NCBI GenBank assembly: GCA_021776685.1
Contig: JAJFFJ010000101.1
Coordinates: 1 to 37,517, forward strand
Source of the DNA: Alphaproteobacteria bacterium
Lineage (GTDB): Bacteria > Pseudomonadota > Alphaproteobacteria > Bin65
Direction: 5' to 3'
DNA length: 37,517 nucleotides
Position numbers and translations under genes: made by a program. The first letter of the stretch is position 1; each line of letters begins with the position of its first letter. Positions 21,582 to 34,423 of the stretch are shown here, piece by piece. The notes under the pieces were generated by a model that ran no database searches, was not told the DNA's origin, and saw only the letters and a program-made list of their open reading frames with translations.

Positions 21582-22673
21582 TTAGCCGCCGGTTGAGAAT
21601 GGAATGATGAACCGCACCCCGCCGGTGAAGCTGTAGCCGCCCTGGTGGGTCAGGCTGGCAGCAGAGGTGTTGCCGGGGGAGGGGTGGCGGATGCCCGGCA
21701 TGGCGCTGTTGTAATTGAAGGCGCCGGTCAGGGCGACGATCACAGGGCCGAGACGGTAGCGTACACCCGCGGTCACGCCGGTCACAAAGGCGACGGTGGA
21801 GGCGGTGTCAGACGCGCTGCCACGGGCCACCAGATTGCCGGTACAATTATTCAACGGTACGCCGTTTGCGCCCTGGCAGCTGGTGCCGTTGTAACGGCTC
21901 CGCTGATAGGCAAAGCCGGCATAGCCGCCCACATAAAGGCGCATGCCGTGGGTCACCTTCCAGACCAGATTGGCGCCGCCGCGGAGGCCCAGATGCCAGG
22001 TGCGCACGCTTTCAAACATCAGCGAGTCTTGGAAAACCGTGCCCGCAACCCGGGTGGCGACAAAGGAGCGGATGCGGCCGTCATAGTCGGTATTGGCCTG
22101 GCCGCCATGAATGCTGACAAAAGGTGAGATGATCCAGCTGGGCGCGACCTTGTAATCGCTGCGGGCGGTCAGTGAAAGCTGCCAGCGGTTGTGGTCGGCA
22201 CTGAGCGCGCCTCGGGCACTGCCCGTGAGGCCAAAGCCGAATCCGGTGCTGGTGCCGTCCACCTGGAAGATGGTGCCCGCGCTGACGGACTGGTTGGTCT
22301 CAGTGCTGGTCTTTTTGCCGATACGATAGAGAAAGCCCAGCTCCAGCCGCACCTGACGTCCCATCCACGCCGGCATAGCGCCGTCGCGAAAGATATAGCC
22401 CAGCGTGGCGTCCGGGCCGCCGGAGAAAATCTTGGGCTCAAAGCTGAGGATTGGCGCGGCGTTGCCTGCGGTGAAGACATTGCCGTCGTAACGGGGCAGC
22501 TTCAGATAGTCGATGCCGCCTCCGCTGGATAGGTACCAGCTTCCGGCGCGGATCATGCTGGCGCCGGGCCAGCCGCCATCTGCGGGGTTGGCATGGCTGG
22601 GCGTGAGTGCGCCCGCGGTGATGAAGCCAGCAACGGCGATGCATCTGGCCGTGTGTTTGAAGTTAATCGTCAT
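21582..22673 (-). CDS. Outer-membrane beta-barrel protein
   Basis: A 363-residue protein with a signal peptide (FKHTARCIAVAGFITAGALT, cleavage near SHA-NP). The mature part consists of alternating amphipathic strands rich in Gly, Tyr and Ser, for example WHLGLRGGANLVWKV and MRLYVGGYAGFAYQRS, and ends with GYSFTGGVRFIIPFSTGG, a typical terminal barrel strand region. Two cysteines in SCQGANGVPLNNC may form a loop disulfide. The ATG at 22673 has an AGGAGAG ribosome site; the frame is open 111 codons upstream but that is noncoding in character. It is divergent from regulator 1 (22934), so it is a candidate target. The transported substrate, if any, is unknown. Confidence 0.8.
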   Translation of the reverse strand: MTINFKHTARCIAVAGFITAGALTPSHANPADGGWPGASMIRAGSWYLSSGGGIDYLKLPRYDGNVFTAGNAAPILSFEPKIFSGGPDATLGYIFRDGAMPAWMGRQVRLELGFLYRIGKKTSTETNQSVSAGTIFQVDGTSTGFGFGLTGSARGALSADHNRWQLSLTARSDYKVAPSWIISPFVSIHGGQANTDYDGRIRSFVATRVAGTVFQDSLMFESVRTWHLGLRGGANLVWKVTHGMRLYVGGYAGFAYQRSRYNGTSCQGANGVPLNNCTGNLVARGSASDTASTVAFVTGVTAGVRYRLGPVIVALTGAFNYNSAMPGIRHPSPGNTSAASLTHQGGYSFTGGVRFIIPFSTGG

Positions 22674-22933
22674 CTGTCTCTCCTGATTCTTCCTGCCGGG
22701 TAGGTCCCGATTGGGGCGCCAGAACCGTCCCGGCGTCTGAGGAGAGAGGTACAAGGCCCCGAATTCTCTTGCTTGAAGAGCAGGTGGAGAGTTTGTGGGG
22801 ATGGGCGGGAGAAGTCTGAAGATTTCATTCCAGGGGCGCTTGTGGATCAAGATCGGCCTATGCGGCTCGACAAGCCCGGGATGCGCGCTAGTATTCCCGC
22901 CTGCCATGCCAACGGGGATACGACCCTTTTTCC

Positions 22934-24496
22934 ATGATTTTTGCGTTCGGTGATTGGGAGCTCGATACCGGGCTCTATGAACTTCGATGCCAGGGCCAGC
23001 CGGCAAAGGTGGAGCCCCAGGTCTTCGATATGCTCGCTTTTCTGGTGCGTCACCGGGACCGGGTGGTCAGCCGGGACGAGATCATCGACGCCGTGTGGGA
23101 GGGCCGCATCGTCAGCGAAGCCACCATCTCGACCTGTCTGAAGGGTGCGCGCCAGGCGATTGGCGATGATGGCCGTCAGCAGCGGCTGATTAAAACCGTG
23201 CATGGCCGGGGCTTCCGGTTCGTCGGCGATGTGGCGAAAGAGGAAGCTGAGACACCCAGGCCCGAATCCTCTTCTGAACCACTGGCGGAAACGCCACCGG
23301 ATGCTCCGCTGCCCGCTGCTGGTGTGTCGGCGAAGCCTGTTATTGCCGTGCTTCCCTTCGACAATCTGAGCGCGGAGGGAGACGCTTATTTTGCCGATGG
23401 CCTGACGGAAGACATCATCACCAATCTGTCGCGTTTTCGGGATCTGCTGATCATTGCCCGTACCGCCACCTTCCTGTTCCGGGGGCGAGGGCAGACGCCG
23501 GCCGAATTCTGTGCGGAGCTGAATGCCGGATATTTTGTTGAGGGCAGCGTCCGCCGGGCCGGGAACCGGGTTCGGGTTACCGTCCAGCTGATCGAAGCGG
23601 CCACCGGATTGCACTTGTGGGCCGACAACTTCGACCGCGACATGGAAGATATTTTCGCGGTTCAGGATGAGGTCACGCGCACCATTGCGGGCTCGCTCGG
23701 CGTCAAGATGCAGGGCGCCGTGCGGCAACGGACCCTGAAGAAAAGCGCCCAGGAACTGGATGCCTATGAATGCGTGTTGCTGGCGCGCCGGTTCACGGAA
23801 GTGCTGAATGCTGAATCCCATGCAGAGGCGCGGGATCTGCTCGAACGGGCGGTGGAGCTGGACCCCGAAAACGCGGACGCCCACGCGCTCCTGTCAAACG
23901 TCTACCTGGCAGAGCACCGCTTCGGGCTGAATACGCAGGACGAGCCGATTTCCCGGGCGTTGAAGCAGGCGGAAATCGCGACCGATCTTGACCCTCAGAA
24001 TGCTTATGCGCGGTGTTGGCTGGCCGTCGTGCATTTCTTCCGGCACGAGAATGAAAAGTTTGAGGCGGAAGCCCGCCGCGCCCTTGAGCTCAATCCGAAT
24101 GATCCGGAGATCCTCGCCGACATCGGGCACTTTATGGCTTTCATGGGCCAATTTGAGCGTGGCATCGAACTGTCCCGCCGGGCCATGGAGCTGAACCCTC
24201 TGCATCCTGACTGGTACAATTACAGTTTCGTCCGATACCACTATGACCGGCGGGAATATGACGAGGCGCTGGCAATTCTCGGGCAGATCGGCATGCCCGA
24301 GTTTTATTGGTGGAACATGTTCCGGGCGGCGGCTCTGGGACAGCTGGGCGCCCCGGGGGCGAAAGCGGCCTTGACCCAGGCCATGGAGACGTATCCGGAT
24401 CTGTCTCCCGCGGCGGAATTCGCCAAGTGGAACGCTGCGCCAGATGATCTCGCCCACCTGGTAGAGGGATTGCGCAAGGCGGGGCTCGACGACTGA
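22934..24496 (+). CDS. Winged-helix / TolB-like / TPR regulator, copy 1
   Basis: A 520-residue modular regulator. Residues 1-100 form an OmpR/CadC-type winged-helix DNA-binding domain (FDMLAFLVRHRDRVVSRDEI, then LIKTVHGRGFRFVGDV). A Pro/Glu-rich linker spans 101-133. A TolB-like/FlgO-type domain follows at about 134-260 (VIAVLPFDNLSAEGDAYFAD, YFVEGSVRRAGNRVRVTVQL). Tetratricopeptide repeats fill 275-500. There is no transmembrane helix in the linker, unlike CadC, so it is predicted to be cytoplasmic. It is 260 bp from the divergent outer-membrane gene. It shares architecture and length with the regulator at 26230 and its rear two-thirds with the cyclase at 32636. The signal sensed is unknown. 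Confidence 0.9.
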   Translation: MIFAFGDWELDTGLYELRCQGQPAKVEPQVFDMLAFLVRHRDRVVSRDEIIDAVWEGRIVSEATISTCLKGARQAIGDDGRQQRLIKTVHGRGFRFVGDVAKEEAETPRPESSSEPLAETPPDAPLPAAGVSAKPVIAVLPFDNLSAEGDAYFADGLTEDIITNLSRFRDLLIIARTATFLFRGRGQTPAEFCAELNAGYFVEGSVRRAGNRVRVTVQLIEAATGLHLWADNFDRDMEDIFAVQDEVTRTIAGSLGVKMQGAVRQRTLKKSAQELDAYECVLLARRFTEVLNAESHAEARDLLERAVELDPENADAHALLSNVYLAEHRFGLNTQDEPISRALKQAEIATDLDPQNAYARCWLAVVHFFRHENEKFEAEARRALELNPNDPEILADIGHFMAFMGQFERGIELSRRAMELNPLHPDWYNYSFVRYHYDRREYDEALAILGQIGMPEFYWWNMFRAAALGQLGAPGAKAALTQAMETYPDLSPAAEFAKWNAAPDDLAHLVEGLRKAGLDD

Positions 24497-24790: not shown

Positions 24791-25960
24791 TTACGCAGCT
24801 TGCTTCTGCGGCTCGGCCGGAACCGTGTCGCTGATCGGGTCGAGGCCAAGGGCGATCCGTCCAGTGAAGCAATGCTGACGCTTCTCCGGCAGCGGGTGAT
24901 AGCGCACGCCGTGGGCATCACGCAGCAACCGCTCCAGGCCGGTTTTACGGAAGAAGCCTGAGCCGCCGGCCGTTTCCATGGCCTTCTGCACGGTCGTCAG
25001 GATCGCCTCCGCCGCAAGGGTCTTGCGGATCAGGATGGCGTTGGCGCCGTCAACGGTGGGCGCGAAGTCCCAGTTGTTGGTGATCGCCACCATGCTGTCG
25101 ACGGCCAGCTGCGCCGTGGTCAAGCGGTTCGTGAGTTCACCCAGCAGATAGGGCGTTTCCGGCTCATCAATGCGCTTCTGCGCTGCCTGGGTGGCGATTT
25201 CCACCGCCGCTTCGGCGACGCCCACATAGGCCGACATGATCATCGGCATGGCCACGGTCAACACCACATTCCACAGCGGGTGGTATTCGCCCTGGGGCCG
25301 CTTCAGCACGATTGCCTCTTCCGGCACGAAAACCTGGTCGAGAACCATGGTCTGCGAACCGGTCGCGCGCATGCCCATGGTCCGCCAGTCATCCATGCCC
25401 GAGACGCCGTCCGCGCTGATCGGCACCGGGAAATGAAACACCTGCGGCCCCTCGACCGGATCCAGATAGGGGGCGGAGGTCACCATGATGGCTCCGCGGG
25501 GTGAGCCGCTGGCGAAGGGCTTGTGCGCGCTGACCAGATAGCCGCCGTCCGTGCGGGTGATCTCGCCATTTGAGGCCATCCAGTCATTGGCGCCAGTGCT
25601 GACCAGGACCGCTTCGGTTGCAGCGACCTTTTCCAGAACCTTCCAGCCGGGCCGGTCGTTCAGATAGTTGAAAATAGCGGCCGCAATCAGGTGCTGGTGC
25701 ATCGACAGCGCCAGCGCCGTGGAGCTGCAGTAACCCGCAAGGGTTCGGACGAAGCTCGCCATTTCCGTATAATTGGCGCCGCCGCCGCCCAGTTCCGTGG
25801 GGATCATGGCCGACAGGATGCGGTGCTCGGCAAGCACATCATAATTGTCGTCGATAAAGCTGTCGGTCTCGTCCCGCTCGGTGATCTTCGCGGCAAAGCC
25901 GGGGCCGATCTTGTGGACGATTGCTTTGAGGTCGATCGTGGCTGTCTTCAGGCTGGTCAT
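24791..25960 (-). CDS. Acyl-CoA dehydrogenase-family flavoprotein
   Basis: A 389-residue flavoprotein of the acyl-CoA dehydrogenase superfamily. The N-terminal helical domain contains IPTELGGGGANYTEM and STALALSMHQHL, the middle beta domain has DDWRTMGMRATGSQTMVLD, and the C-terminal helical domain contains AGGSGFFRKTGLERLLRDAHGV. Where many true dehydrogenases have a YEGT-like segment with the catalytic glutamate, this one has RYHPLPEKRQ, so it may be an atypical dehydrogenase or a DszC/hydroxylase-like flavin enzyme. An AAGGAGC ribosome site precedes the ATG. It is divergent from regulator 2, with a 269-bp region full of repeat elements between them. Confidence 0.88.
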   Translation of the reverse strand: MTSLKTATIDLKAIVHKIGPGFAAKITERDETDSFIDDNYDVLAEHRILSAMIPTELGGGGANYTEMASFVRTLAGYCSSTALALSMHQHLIAAAIFNYLNDRPGWKVLEKVAATEAVLVSTGANDWMASNGEITRTDGGYLVSAHKPFASGSPRGAIMVTSAPYLDPVEGPQVFHFPVPISADGVSGMDDWRTMGMRATGSQTMVLDQVFVPEEAIVLKRPQGEYHPLWNVVLTVAMPMIMSAYVGVAEAAVEIATQAAQKRIDEPETPYLLGELTNRLTTAQLAVDSMVAITNNWDFAPTVDGANAILIRKTLAAEAILTTVQKAMETAGGSGFFRKTGLERLLRDAHGVRYHPLPEKRQHCFTGRIALGLDPISDTVPAEPQKQAA

Positions 25961-26052
25961 CTTTCTGCTCCTTTGGTTTCAGATCCGCCTGTGGGGACAG
26001 GCGGGGAAATTTGGGGGTCGGTCTGCTCGGGGGGTGGCCCGAACGCCGACCT

Positions 26053-26065
26053 GCATCAGTGATGC
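26053..26065. promoter_or_regulatory. 13-bp perfect palindrome
   Basis: GCATCA-G-TGATGC is a perfect 6+1+6 palindrome in the region between the divergent flavoprotein and regulator 2, 92 bp before the flavoprotein start. It is a candidate operator and may act alongside the direct repeats at 26102. It does not match a consensus I can name. Confidence 0.4.
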
Positions 26066-26101
26066 TGTTGTGCCGGAGCTGGGTCTGAAGCGCTTGAAGA
26101 C

Positions 26102-26134
26102 TGTCTGGGGATTGTCTGGGGATTTTCCGGGGAT
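26102..26134. repeat. 11-bp direct repeats, TGTCTGGGGAT
   Basis: Two identical units TGTCTGGGGAT at 26102 and 26113 are followed by a third, TTTCCGGGGAT, at 26124. An 11-bp step with a TGTC half-site is the spacing used by OmpR/PhoB-type winged-helix proteins, the same domain class as the regulator encoded 95 bp downstream. Overlapping it, CGGGGA (26128) and TCCCCG (26142) form an inverted repeat with an 8-bp spacer. Confidence 0.65.
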
Positions 26135-26169
26135 TGTATTTTCCCCGAATTTCCCGGCCTTTTTTCGGA

Positions 26170-26198
26170 TTGACTGGCACCCAACCCCACCATGAACT
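26170..26198 (+). promoter_or_regulatory. Possible promoter of regulator 2
   Basis: TTGACT at 26170-26175 matches the -35 consensus at five of six positions; 17 bp on, TGAACT is only a weak -10. The position, 32-60 bp before the start codon and 36 bp downstream of the direct repeats, is suitable, but the -10 is poor. Confidence 0.3.
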
Positions 26199-26229
26199 AG
26201 GGTTTCGGCGCTGAAGGGGTGAGGCCCGA

Positions 26230-27792
26230 ATGATCTATCGCTTCGACGAGTTCGAGCTCGATTTGGATAAATTTGAACTACGCCGCGCCGGGCAACCGCG
26301 CCACGTGGAGCCGATGGTCTTTGACCTGATCTGCTTTCTGTCCCGCAGCGTCGGCCGTGTGGTCAGCCGCGACGAAATCATCGACGGCGTCTGGGATGGG
26401 CGCATCGTCTCTGACGCAACCATCTCCAGCTGCATCAAGTCCGCCCGCAGGGCGCTGGACGACAGTGGCGACAACCAGACCTACATCCGCACCGTCCGGG
26501 GGCGTGGGTTCCAGTTTGTTGCGGATGTGGAAGGCGGGAATGCAGGCACTCTAGAAAAAGAGCCGATTGCTGCGCGGGAAAAGGCGCCTGCGTCGATCTC
26601 AGCACCGGTCGTTTCAAGCGGCACCAGCCTGGCATTGCTGCCCTTCGATGTGTTTTCGGGAGACACCAGCCTTCAGTATTTTGCCGACGGTCTGGTCGAA
26701 GACCTGACAACCATCCTCGCGCGGGTCCCGGCGCTGACGGTGATCTCCCGGTCGTCGAGTTTCAGTTACAAGGGCAAGAGCCCCAGCGTCGCCCAGGTCC
26801 GCGATGATCTGGGCGTCAGTCACCTGATTGAGGGCAGCGTCCGGCAACTGGGCGACATGGCGCGCATCAACGTGCAATTGATCGATACGGCGGACGGCGG
26901 CCATGTGTGGGCCGAGCGGTTCGACCGGCCCTTTGATGAGCTGATGAAGGTACAGGATGACATCATCCAGTCGATCAGCCGTGTGCTGGAGCCGCAACTG
27001 GTCAGGGTTTCCTATATTCGCGGTCAGTATCTGCAGCCGGAAGAGGATGCCGCGGCGGCCTTCAATCAGGCGAATGGCCTGCTGGCCATCAAGGGCTGGC
27101 ACCCGGCGAGCTTTACCGAAGCGGCGCGCTTGCTCGAAAAATGCGTCGATATCCAACCCGACTTTGCGCGGGCGCACGCGTTCTTGTCTCTGATATTGGG
27201 TCTGGGCCAGCGGATCGGCTTTCTCTACGACCGTGACGCGGCGATAGAGGAAAGCCTGGCGGCGGCCGAACGGGCGCTCGCGCTTGACGATGTGGATTCG
27301 ACGGTCCTGGGCTTCACCGGATGCGCCTTGGCGGACATCGGCCAGGCTCAGCGCGGCATTCCTTTGCTGGAAAAGGCGCTGGAGCAGGATCCCTCCAATG
27401 CCCAGGCGTGGGCGGCCCTGGGCGCGGCCAAGCTGGCGGACAGGCGGCCGGAGGAAGCGGCGCACGACCTGCGCGAGGGCATCCGCCTGAGCCCGCTCGA
27501 CAACCGGCTGGCAATCTGGATGAATTTTCTCGCCACGGCGCTGCTCTACGGTGGCGATACCGACGGCGCGGTGGAGGAAATTTTGAAGGCCTGCCGTCAG
27601 GACACCCGGAATTTCATGCCGCGGGTGACCAAAGCGGCAATCCTGCTGTCCGCCAAACGTGCAGATGAAGCGAAAGCCGCGATGGCAGAGGCCTACAGCA
27701 TTCGCCCGGAACTGAGCGAAATTGAGATTGCCGCCATCGTCGGCAAAAAGACCTGCAAAATCATGGGAAAGTTAGGCCTTCTGGCGGCCTAG
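26230..27792 (+). CDS. Winged-helix / TolB-like / TPR regulator, copy 2
   Basis: A 520-residue paralogue of the regulator at 22934, with the same domain order. An OmpR-type winged helix occupies 1-100 (VFDLICFLSRSVGRVVSRDE, YIRTVRGRGFQFVADV), a linker 101-130, the TolB-like domain 131-260 (LALLPFDVFSGDTSLQYFAD, LIEGSVRQLGDMARINVQLI), and TPR units follow, such as AQAWAALGAAKLADRRPEEA. No transmembrane helix is visible. It is divergent from the acyl-CoA dehydrogenase-like gene, and an 11-bp direct repeat lies between them, so autoregulation and control of that gene are plausible. Its last 21 bp overlap the convergent membrane-protein gene. Confidence 0.9.
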   Translation: MIYRFDEFELDLDKFELRRAGQPRHVEPMVFDLICFLSRSVGRVVSRDEIIDGVWDGRIVSDATISSCIKSARRALDDSGDNQTYIRTVRGRGFQFVADVEGGNAGTLEKEPIAAREKAPASISAPVVSSGTSLALLPFDVFSGDTSLQYFADGLVEDLTTILARVPALTVISRSSSFSYKGKSPSVAQVRDDLGVSHLIEGSVRQLGDMARINVQLIDTADGGHVWAERFDRPFDELMKVQDDIIQSISRVLEPQLVRVSYIRGQYLQPEEDAAAAFNQANGLLAIKGWHPASFTEAARLLEKCVDIQPDFARAHAFLSLILGLGQRIGFLYDRDAAIEESLAAAERALALDDVDSTVLGFTGCALADIGQAQRGIPLLEKALEQDPSNAQAWAALGAAKLADRRPEEAAHDLREGIRLSPLDNRLAIWMNFLATALLYGGDTDGAVEEILKACRQDTRNFMPRVTKAAILLSAKRADEAKAAMAEAYSIRPELSEIEIAAIVGKKTCKIMGKLGLLAA

Positions 27793-32635: not shown

Positions 32636-34423
32636 GTGGAAACGGAAAGAGTCACGCGCAGACTTGCCGCAATCTTTGCTGCGGATATGGTTGGCTATTC
32701 ACGCCTCATGGCCGCCGACGAGGAAGGCACCATAGCGCGCCAAAAAACCCATCGCAGGGAACTGATCGATCCCAAAATCGCCGAACACGGTGGGCGTATC
32801 GTCAAACTTATGGGGGACGGTATGCTGGTCGAATTTGCGTCTGTCGTCGATGCCGTCCGTTGTGGAGTCGAGGTTCAGCAGGCGATGGCTAAGCGCGAAG
32901 AAACGGTGGCTGAAGAGCAACGAATCCGATACCGGATCGGCATCAATCTCGGGGACATCGTGATCGACGGAGACGATATTCTGGGTGACGGCGTTAATGT
33001 TGCGGCGCGTCTGGAGGCTTTGGCTGATCAAGGTGGCATCGCAATTTCACGCGCGGCCAGGGATCAGGTTCGCGACAAGCTTGATTTTCCACTTGAGGAT
33101 ATGGGCGAGCACCAAGTCAAAAACATTGACCGTCCGGTGCATGTTTTCCGCGTAGGCCTTGAGGGGAAAATGGACAGCCCAAAGGCGGTTGCCGAAGGCC
33201 CGGCAGCCAAAGATGCGATCCCCGTGCCGGCGGACCGGCCGGCCATCGCTGTCTTGGCGTTTGAGAATATGAGCGGCGATCCCGAGCAGGAATATTTCGC
33301 CGACGGGATTGCTGAGGACATCATCACCGCCCTGTCGAAGTTTCGCGAGTTCATCGTTATCGCCCGGAATTCAAGCTTCACCTACAAGGGCAGTGCGGTC
33401 GACATCAAACGGGTCGCTGAAGAACTCGGTGTCCGCTATGTGCTGGAGGGCAGCGTGCGGAAGGCCGGCGGGCGCGTGCGCATCACGGGCCAGCTTATCG
33501 ATGCCCGGAACGGCGCGCATATCTGGGCGGAACGCTACGACCGCGGCCTTGACGACATTTTTGCGGTTCAGGACGAAATCACCCAAAGCATCGTCGGTGC
33601 GATTGCCCCGGGGATCGTGTCGGCCGAGATTCAGACCGCCCAACGCAAGGATGCCGGTCAGCTTGGCGCATGGGATTGCGTGATGCGCGCGCACGCCCTC
33701 ACCATGCAGTTTGCGCAGGAATATGTCGCCGAGGCCGGGCGTCTATTGGCTCAGGCGATTGAACTCGATCCGGAGAATGTCACCGCGCTCAGCGAGCTTG
33801 CGTTCATCCAGCATCTGGAAGGGGTCTGGGGCTGGAGCGATTCGCCAATGGACTCGATGGTGCGACTGGAGGAATTGGCACGAAAGGCGGTCGCGATAGA
33901 TGATCGCGATGCCTCCGCCCATGTCGCGCTCGCGATCGCCGAAGTCTTCACTGGCCAGCATGACAAAGCGCAGCACCGGTTGGAACGTGCCATCCACCTC
34001 AATCCCAGCCTCGCATGGGCGCACGGCTATCTCGGTGTGGTCCACTCATTTTCGGCGGAACCGGAGGCAGCCGATTCCTGCATGGAGACCACCATTCGGC
34101 TTAGTCCTCACGACCCCTTGCTGGTAATTTGGTATGCAGCGCCGGCTTGGGGCGCTTTGTGCACTGAGCGCTTCGAAGATGCGGTCGCACATGCGAAAAA
34201 AGCGGTGTCCCATAATCCCGATTTCCCCGACACGTTTATCATTTTGGCGTCGGCCTGCGGACATACCGGGCGGATTGACGAAGCGAAGGCGGCGCTTGAG
34301 CAATTCCAGCAACACCTGCCGGGCCTGACGGTAAATGATCCCAGGTTGATTCGGCCTTTCAAACGGCCGGAGGACCAGGAACGGTTCCTCGACGGCCTTC
34401 GCAAAGCGGGTTTGCCTGAATAA
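32636..34423 (+). CDS. Class III adenylate cyclase / TolB-like / TPR protein
   Basis: A 595-residue cytoplasmic protein. Residues 7-175 are a class III cyclase homology domain with all six canonical residues by alignment: metal Asp17 and Asp61, purine Lys57 and Asp114 (ATP type), and Asn121 and Arg125 for the transition state. It should therefore make cAMP. A TolB-like domain follows at about 200-330 (IAVLAFENMSGDPEQEYFAD, VLEGSVRKAGGRVRITGQLI), and TPRs run to the end, which closes GLRKAGLPE. The start is GTG 32636 with a GGGGAGG ribosome site. The rear two-thirds parallel the regulators at 22934 and 26230. The family is abundant in Rhizobiales; the stimulus is unknown. Confidence 0.93.
   Translation: METERVTRRLAAIFAADMVGYSRLMAADEEGTIARQKTHRRELIDPKIAEHGGRIVKLMGDGMLVEFASVVDAVRCGVEVQQAMAKREETVAEEQRIRYRIGINLGDIVIDGDDILGDGVNVAARLEALADQGGIAISRAARDQVRDKLDFPLEDMGEHQVKNIDRPVHVFRVGLEGKMDSPKAVAEGPAAKDAIPVPADRPAIAVLAFENMSGDPEQEYFADGIAEDIITALSKFREFIVIARNSSFTYKGSAVDIKRVAEELGVRYVLEGSVRKAGGRVRITGQLIDARNGAHIWAERYDRGLDDIFAVQDEITQSIVGAIAPGIVSAEIQTAQRKDAGQLGAWDCVMRAHALTMQFAQEYVAEAGRLLAQAIELDPENVTALSELAFIQHLEGVWGWSDSPMDSMVRLEELARKAVAIDDRDASAHVALAIAEVFTGQHDKAQHRLERAIHLNPSLAWAHGYLGVVHSFSAEPEAADSCMETTIRLSPHDPLLVIWYAAPAWGALCTERFEDAVAHAKKAVSHNPDFPDTFIILASACGHTGRIDEAKAALEQFQQHLPGLTVNDPRLIRPFKRPEDQERFLDGLRKAGLPE

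Follow-up and report, generated by a model that had tools for sequence, protein, structure and literature searches.

A conserved four-unit 11-bp direct repeat as the probable operator of a winged-helix/TPR regulator facing a divergent flavoprotein gene in an alphaproteobacterium

The DNA analysed here, referred to below as the window, is the whole stretch of 37,517 nt, and it contains two paralogous regulator genes, each facing a divergently transcribed gene (Table 1). Regulator 2 matched PF00486 (Trans_reg_C) over residues 22-96 at 57.7 bits, against a gathering score of 26.2, and TPR families were also matched. No receiver domain was found among its Pfam matches, and hydropathy revealed no membrane segment (best 19-aa mean 1.31). 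Regulator 1 was 43% identical to regulator 2 over residues 1-355. The flavoprotein opposite regulator 2 matched PF08028, PF02771 and PF00441 above the cut-off, and 13 NCBIfam models, every one below its cut-off. The divergent partner of regulator 1 looks, as an impression only, like an exported, perhaps beta-barrel protein. A further reading frame (33176-34315) matched regulator 2 over residues 111-491 and not over the winged helix. Relatives of the winged helix were present in 33/385 genomes of the class (E 1e-18).

Table 1. Genes, repeats and promoter-like hexamers discussed in the text, with their coordinates in the window
Feature	Position	Strand	Remarks
Four-unit 11-bp direct repeat, probable operator of regulator 2	26092..26135	+	GCTTGAAGACT / GTCTGGGGATT / GTCTGGGGATT / TTCCGGGGATT
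Three 11-bp copies of the original prediction	26102..26134	+	units 2-4 in another register
Paralogous putative operator ahead of regulator 1	22771..22814	+	GCTTGAAGAGC / AGGTGGAGAGT / TTGTGGGGATG / GGCGGGAGAAG
Place of the divergent -10-like hexamer, gap 19	26067..26072	-	CACAAC, poor match
Other divergent hexamer	26062-26067		CAGCAT, gap 24
Putative -10-like hexamer, one of three that the regulator 2 promoter might use	26137..26142	+	TATTTT
Regulator 2, presumed operator binder	26230..27792	+	520 aa; N-terminal OmpR/PhoB-type winged helix and TPR repeats
Regulator 1, paralog of regulator 2	22934..24496	+	520 aa; winged helix and TPR
Acyl-CoA dehydrogenase-like flavoprotein (by Pfam), divergent, presumed target	24791..25960	-	389 aa
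Divergent partner of regulator 1	21582..22673	-	363 aa; no Pfam match

Between regulator 2 and the flavoprotein gene, TGTCTGGGGAT occurs exactly at 26102-26112 and again at 26113-26123, followed at 26124-26134 by a third copy, TTTCCGGGGAT, with 2 mismatches. The original prediction of two exact copies and a degenerate third was thus borne out, and its distances also proved correct on recomputation, with 95 bp from the repeats to the regulator 2 ATG (26230) and, on the other side, 141 bp to that of the divergent gene (25960). The tandem showed 20/22 period-11 identities, the highest value in the window, compared with a maximum of 18 in 200 first-order Markov resamplings, and it was the sole period-11 run in the window with at least 11 identities. 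Tandem Repeats Finder gave it a score of 58, ranking second in the window. The single 11-mer is not rare, with 15 matches in the window at up to 2 mismatches vs 10.1 expected; the 22-mer is unique in the 4.54-Mb genome, allowing up to 3 mismatches. A scan for sigma-70-type promoters from 25900 to 26300 found none, and the terminator-like match within the repeats was at chance level (1 vs a mean of 0.7). An 18-base inverted pair (89%) flanks the repeats with one arm near each gene (AGGCGGGGAAATTTGGGG at 25999-26016 and CCCCGAATTTCCCGGCCT at 26143-26160), and a palindrome, GCATCA-G-TGATGC, lies at 26053-26065, on the flavoprotein side of the repeats.

We assembled a set of 57 upstream regions from 26 family groups, drawn from genomes of the same class and two named assemblies, with both window regions included and three duplicates removed beforehand. 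Some of these regions fall within reading frames (fused genes, e.g. L032, L084 and L086) and were retained in the counts. The genus was represented by one genome, and family and order by the same 11 genomes. No regulator was found within flanks of about 1.5 kb at 12 other flavoprotein loci. Because no genome examined carried the same gene pair, conservation was assessed in relatives with other partner genes. Side-by-side reading revealed a block, common to related upstream regions, that opens with GCTTGAAGA and continues in 11-bp units. Independently of any motif, 21/57 regions reached 14/22 identities at period 11, compared with a mean of 1.8 and a maximum of 5 in 50 resampled sets; the same test at the remaining periods between 6 and 25 gave at best 10 regions (period 22, a harmonic of 11), followed by 7 (period 6). 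A direct-repeat site of about 11-bp period, as for PF00486 proteins, is present, and period 11 is prominent in the 57 regions.

The motif width of 44 was chosen by hand, the main PWM was seeded with GCTTGAAGA as spotted by eye, and the null sets were first-order Markov resamplings. A motif search from random starts (40 random seeds for the real set and 10 for the null sets) recovered the same block as the GCTTGAAGA start, and the de novo motif reached 27.9 bits vs 11.2-12.0 bits in 10 resampled sets. The resulting consensus reads GCTTGAaGann / ncCTGnAGATT / TCcTGGAGATT / ncCTGGATTTT. In leave-one-out scoring, 43/57 regions exceeded all 200 resamplings; when whole families were left out, 39/57 regions passed, representing 25/26 family groups, and 18/57 failed.

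The segment 26092-26135 was the highest PWM match in the window (35.8 bits), and its leave-one-family-out score of 32.9 bits was reached by 0/300 resamplings. The three copies counted in the original prediction are real, but the true number of units is four, a degenerate first unit (GCTTGAAGACT, 26092-26102) having been overlooked. Conservation of 11-bp TGTC repeats in orthologous intergenic regions had been put forward as a check; among relatives of the regulator, whose partner genes differ, the upstream operator is conserved. The TGTC letters themselves are weakly conserved. The second-best PWM place in the window (29.0 bits) is the one ahead of regulator 1. Two loci of one genome (L090 and L092, genome G288) share the GCTTGA start and the 11-bp period, have different cores (GTGCTATT and GTGCAATT) and a diverged recognition helix, and may have changed specificity.

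Outside the 44 bases conservation drops, save for a left block (T at -21, A at -20 and A at -25) that reads TAnnnT on the divergent strand and resembles a -10 element. Among the 37 strong sites (at least 20 bits), 21 had YAnnnT at a gap of exactly 19 bases from TCAAGC; no other gap between 2 and 45 accounted for more than 2. The stricter form TAnnnT was found in 14 strong sites at gap 19, in 1 at gap 20 and in none at other gaps. YAnnnT at gap 19 was missing in 16/37 strong sites, and it was absent for both regulator 2 (CACAAC) and regulator 1, where the hexamer at this place is TACCTC. On the regulator side, no sharp position was found for a -10 element. A divergent frame of at least 62 codons started 43-180 bp away in 37/37 strong sites, a count made without a chance control and open to miscalled short frames. 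Among these divergent partners, 20/37 had a Pfam match (E 0.001), the flavoprotein included, and 17/37 had none. The matches comprised OsmC-like proteins (4), methyltransferases (3), tautomerases (2) and pyridoxal-phosphate enzymes (2), and further an alpha/beta hydrolase, a selenium-binding protein, DUF1326, DUF1127, a di-haem peroxidase and a YadA-type surface protein; two of the matches (L062 and L063) fall under the curated cut-off. The varied partner families, together with divergent frames throughout, indicate that the partner changes and the layout stays. The fixed distance is to a hexamer on the divergent strand, which makes the divergent gene the likely primary target. Control of both genes by regulator 2, as first proposed, is favoured for the divergent gene and no more than possible for regulator 2 itself.

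The operator accompanies the regulator gene among relatives, which points to regulator 2 as the probable binder. Across 36 sites, similarity of the recognition helix correlated with similarity of the operator (r 0.34, 0/2000 permutations; 0.30 after fixing the N-terminal part of the winged helix), and so did similarity of the N-terminal part (r 0.28; 0.24 with the recognition helix fixed). Because the N-terminal part also tracks operator similarity, the helix correlation may in part reflect shared descent. The correlation is not credited to the recognition helix alone, the N-terminal control giving r -0.06 when unanchored and 0.28 when anchored. A histidine at one position of the helix went with lower PWM scores (13 of 76 regulators, median 5.5; p 0.005), and such regulators, judged by eye, seem to have another site, CTTGGA...TCCAAG. 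Loci L105-L109, L112, L114 and L117 have a TSH recognition helix and, by eye, CTTGGA-N6-TCCAAG-like inverted sites before the regulator; in the four that are annotated (L105, L107, L108 and L109), the divergent gene encodes an SDR oxidoreductase. At locus L025, from a Rhodobiaceae assembly, the winged helix shared 76% identity with the regulator 2 winged helix, while the whole protein was closest to regulator 1 (59%). Its operator was identical to the regulator 2 operator at 28/44 positions vs 26/44 for the regulator 1 operator, and thus slightly nearer to the former, a comparison that is suggestive only.

A second set consisted of 19 plasmid loci, chosen by hand across organisms from 100 numbered matches and including four close Azospirillum copies. 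The plasmid copies are annotated generally, e.g. as 'winged helix-turn-helix domain-containing tetratricopeptide repeat protein'. Loci L104 (Shinella) and L113 (Streptomyces) carry the same winged helix N-terminally on proteins annotated as alpha/beta fold hydrolases. With the PWM frozen, 4/19 plasmid loci scored above every one of 1000 resamplings (those of Sphingobium, Mesorhizobium, Shinella and Azoarcus, the last a betaproteobacterium), 8/19 were weak, with scores reached by 1 to 16 of 1000 resamplings, and the motif was absent in 7/19, where at least 98 of 1000 resamplings reached the score. YAnnnT at gap 19 was found in 2 of the 4 top loci.

An exact pattern derived from the motif gave 17 matches in the 385 class genomes vs 2 for the reversed control. 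Ten of the 17 precede a regulator of the winged-helix/TPR kind, and five of the remaining seven look like chance (at most 15.5 bits); the other two, L131 and L135, have high scores. Three operator-like sites had no family regulator within the fetched 1.5-kb flanks, and in all three a gene sits on the left side, that of the divergent target. One of them (L131; 32.8 bits, hexamer CATTGT) precedes, as read by eye, a cysteine-synthase-like gene, past which, some 1.7 kb from the site, a family regulator (L084) has its start. Another (L135; 41.2 bits, hexamer TAGCCT) precedes a cupin-like gene (Pfam 24.1 bits, cut-off 27.2). The third (L123; G000:C8:11739-11769, minus strand; 29.8 bits) is the fourth operator-like site of the window's own genome. 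The gene 103 bases beyond it encodes a small, exported-looking protein that has no Pfam match. At gap 19 the site has CAAAAA, which is not YAnnnT, and the site is possibly a target in trans.

Several other readings of the repeats were weighed. That they are a functionless tandem duplication, arisen by chance or by slippage, appears hardly probable at all: slippage can yield exact short tandems, and the 22-mer occurs only once in the genome, yet its register fits an operator model built without its own family group, and paralogous regulator 1 likewise has such an operator. Very improbable, too, is a Pho box, or a site for PhoB, OmpR or another response regulator. The Pho box was rejected as a candidate, with 9/14 positions matched here and 11/14 elsewhere in the window, although TGTC does recur at 11-bp spacing. 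Beyond the three family members, the genome has seven more places with an OmpR-type winged helix (counted by winged helix) that could supply such a response regulator, but with the operator PWM none of these loci scored above 8.0 bits. The strongly conserved bases of the operator also differ from the TGTC letters. Because those letters fall in weakly conserved columns and the Pho-box match is poor, the segment does not appear to be a PhoB site; of the term 'PhoB-like' in the original prediction, the fold and the 11-bp spacing hold and the PhoB site does not.

A small but appreciable chance is left to the operator mainly autoregulating regulator 2, by repression or activation, with the flavoprotein gene as a bystander. 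Autoregulation is common among such regulators; the operator lies 94 bp from the regulator 2 ATG, the hexamer on the flavoprotein side is poor, and TATTTT immediately follows the repeats. However, the distance that is fixed across the family is that to the divergent hexamer, whereas the distance from operator to regulator start ranges from 15 to 153 bp (46 sites). Moreover, L123, L131 and L135 precede left-side genes, and no family regulator was found in their 1.5-kb flanks, the one near L131 (L084) lying past its gene.

We therefore prefer, with good though not complete confidence, the reading that 26092-26135 is the operator of regulator 2 and most likely serves to recruit RNA polymerase to the divergent flavoprotein gene, as suggested by comparison of the related loci. 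The winged-helix domains would line up head to tail over the four 11-bp units, all on one face of the DNA and probably in the form of two tandem dimers. At its proximal end the operator reads TCAAGC on the divergent strand; this end would occupy the -35 position, and the bound regulator 2 would recruit RNA polymerase to the promoter of the divergent gene. If transcription starts about 7 bases past the -10 element, the operator would cover approximately -32 to -75 of this promoter. The TPR part probably senses or relays a signal. With CACAAC as its hexamer at gap 19, the flavoprotein promoter may be weak and dependent entirely on the activator, or may use CAGCAT at gap 24 instead, or this copy may have drifted.

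The conserved operator and the fixed promoter geometry together would provide this little-studied regulator group with a DNA code, a likely target in the divergent gene and a route to further targets. The chances are about even that SARP-like local activators form a large, as yet undescribed class in the Proteobacteria. If so, each winged-helix/TPR regulator would activate the unrelated enzyme or surface-protein gene opposite to it from four phased half-sites placed 19 bp from the -10 element. The letters of the half-sites would vary with the type of recognition helix, and targets could be predicted from sequence alone, also away from the regulator. We recognised no description of the four-unit operator in the open-access literature, among the matches listed.

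Compared with known systems, regulator 2 shares with PhoB the winged-helix fold and the 11-bp repeat period, and differs from it in having no receiver domain among its Pfam matches and in the poor Pho-box match at its operator. With the CadC/HilA/ToxR group of one-component regulators (PMC5693285) it has in common the N-terminal winged helix. Regulator 2 scored 109.6 bits with the CadC model (equivalog cut-off 400) and 74.1 bits with the HilA/EilA model (equivalog cut-off 589), in both cases well below the cut-off. CadC and ToxR have a membrane segment, whereas regulator 2 has none by hydropathy; HilA resembles it in this respect, having no membrane span (PMC5693285).

The predicted activation resembles that by SARP or PhoB proteins. 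SARP proteins, exemplified by AfsR and its afs box in Streptomyces, also have an N-terminal OmpR-type DNA-binding domain, with TPR repeats in AfsR, and use 11-bp direct repeats over the -35 region with constant spacing to the -10 element, the upstream repeat overlapping the -35 at afsS (PMC10936776). They differ from regulator 2 in the BTA domain that follows their winged helix, none being found among its Pfam matches at E 0.001, and in facing antibiotic clusters, whereas the operator described here occurs mostly in Alphaproteobacteria, opposite assorted genes. The afs box has two units, compared with four here, and the last, 3' SARP repeat lies 8 bp from the -10 element (PMC10936776), compared with 19 bp here (21/37 sites), one helical turn more. 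As a gap of 19 equals the SARP gap of 8 plus one turn of 11, the regulator would lie on the same helix face as a SARP protein, which makes activation by recruitment the likeliest reading. The idea of an OmpR-type domain acting on phased 11-bp repeats over the -35 region would thereby extend to Alphaproteobacteria.
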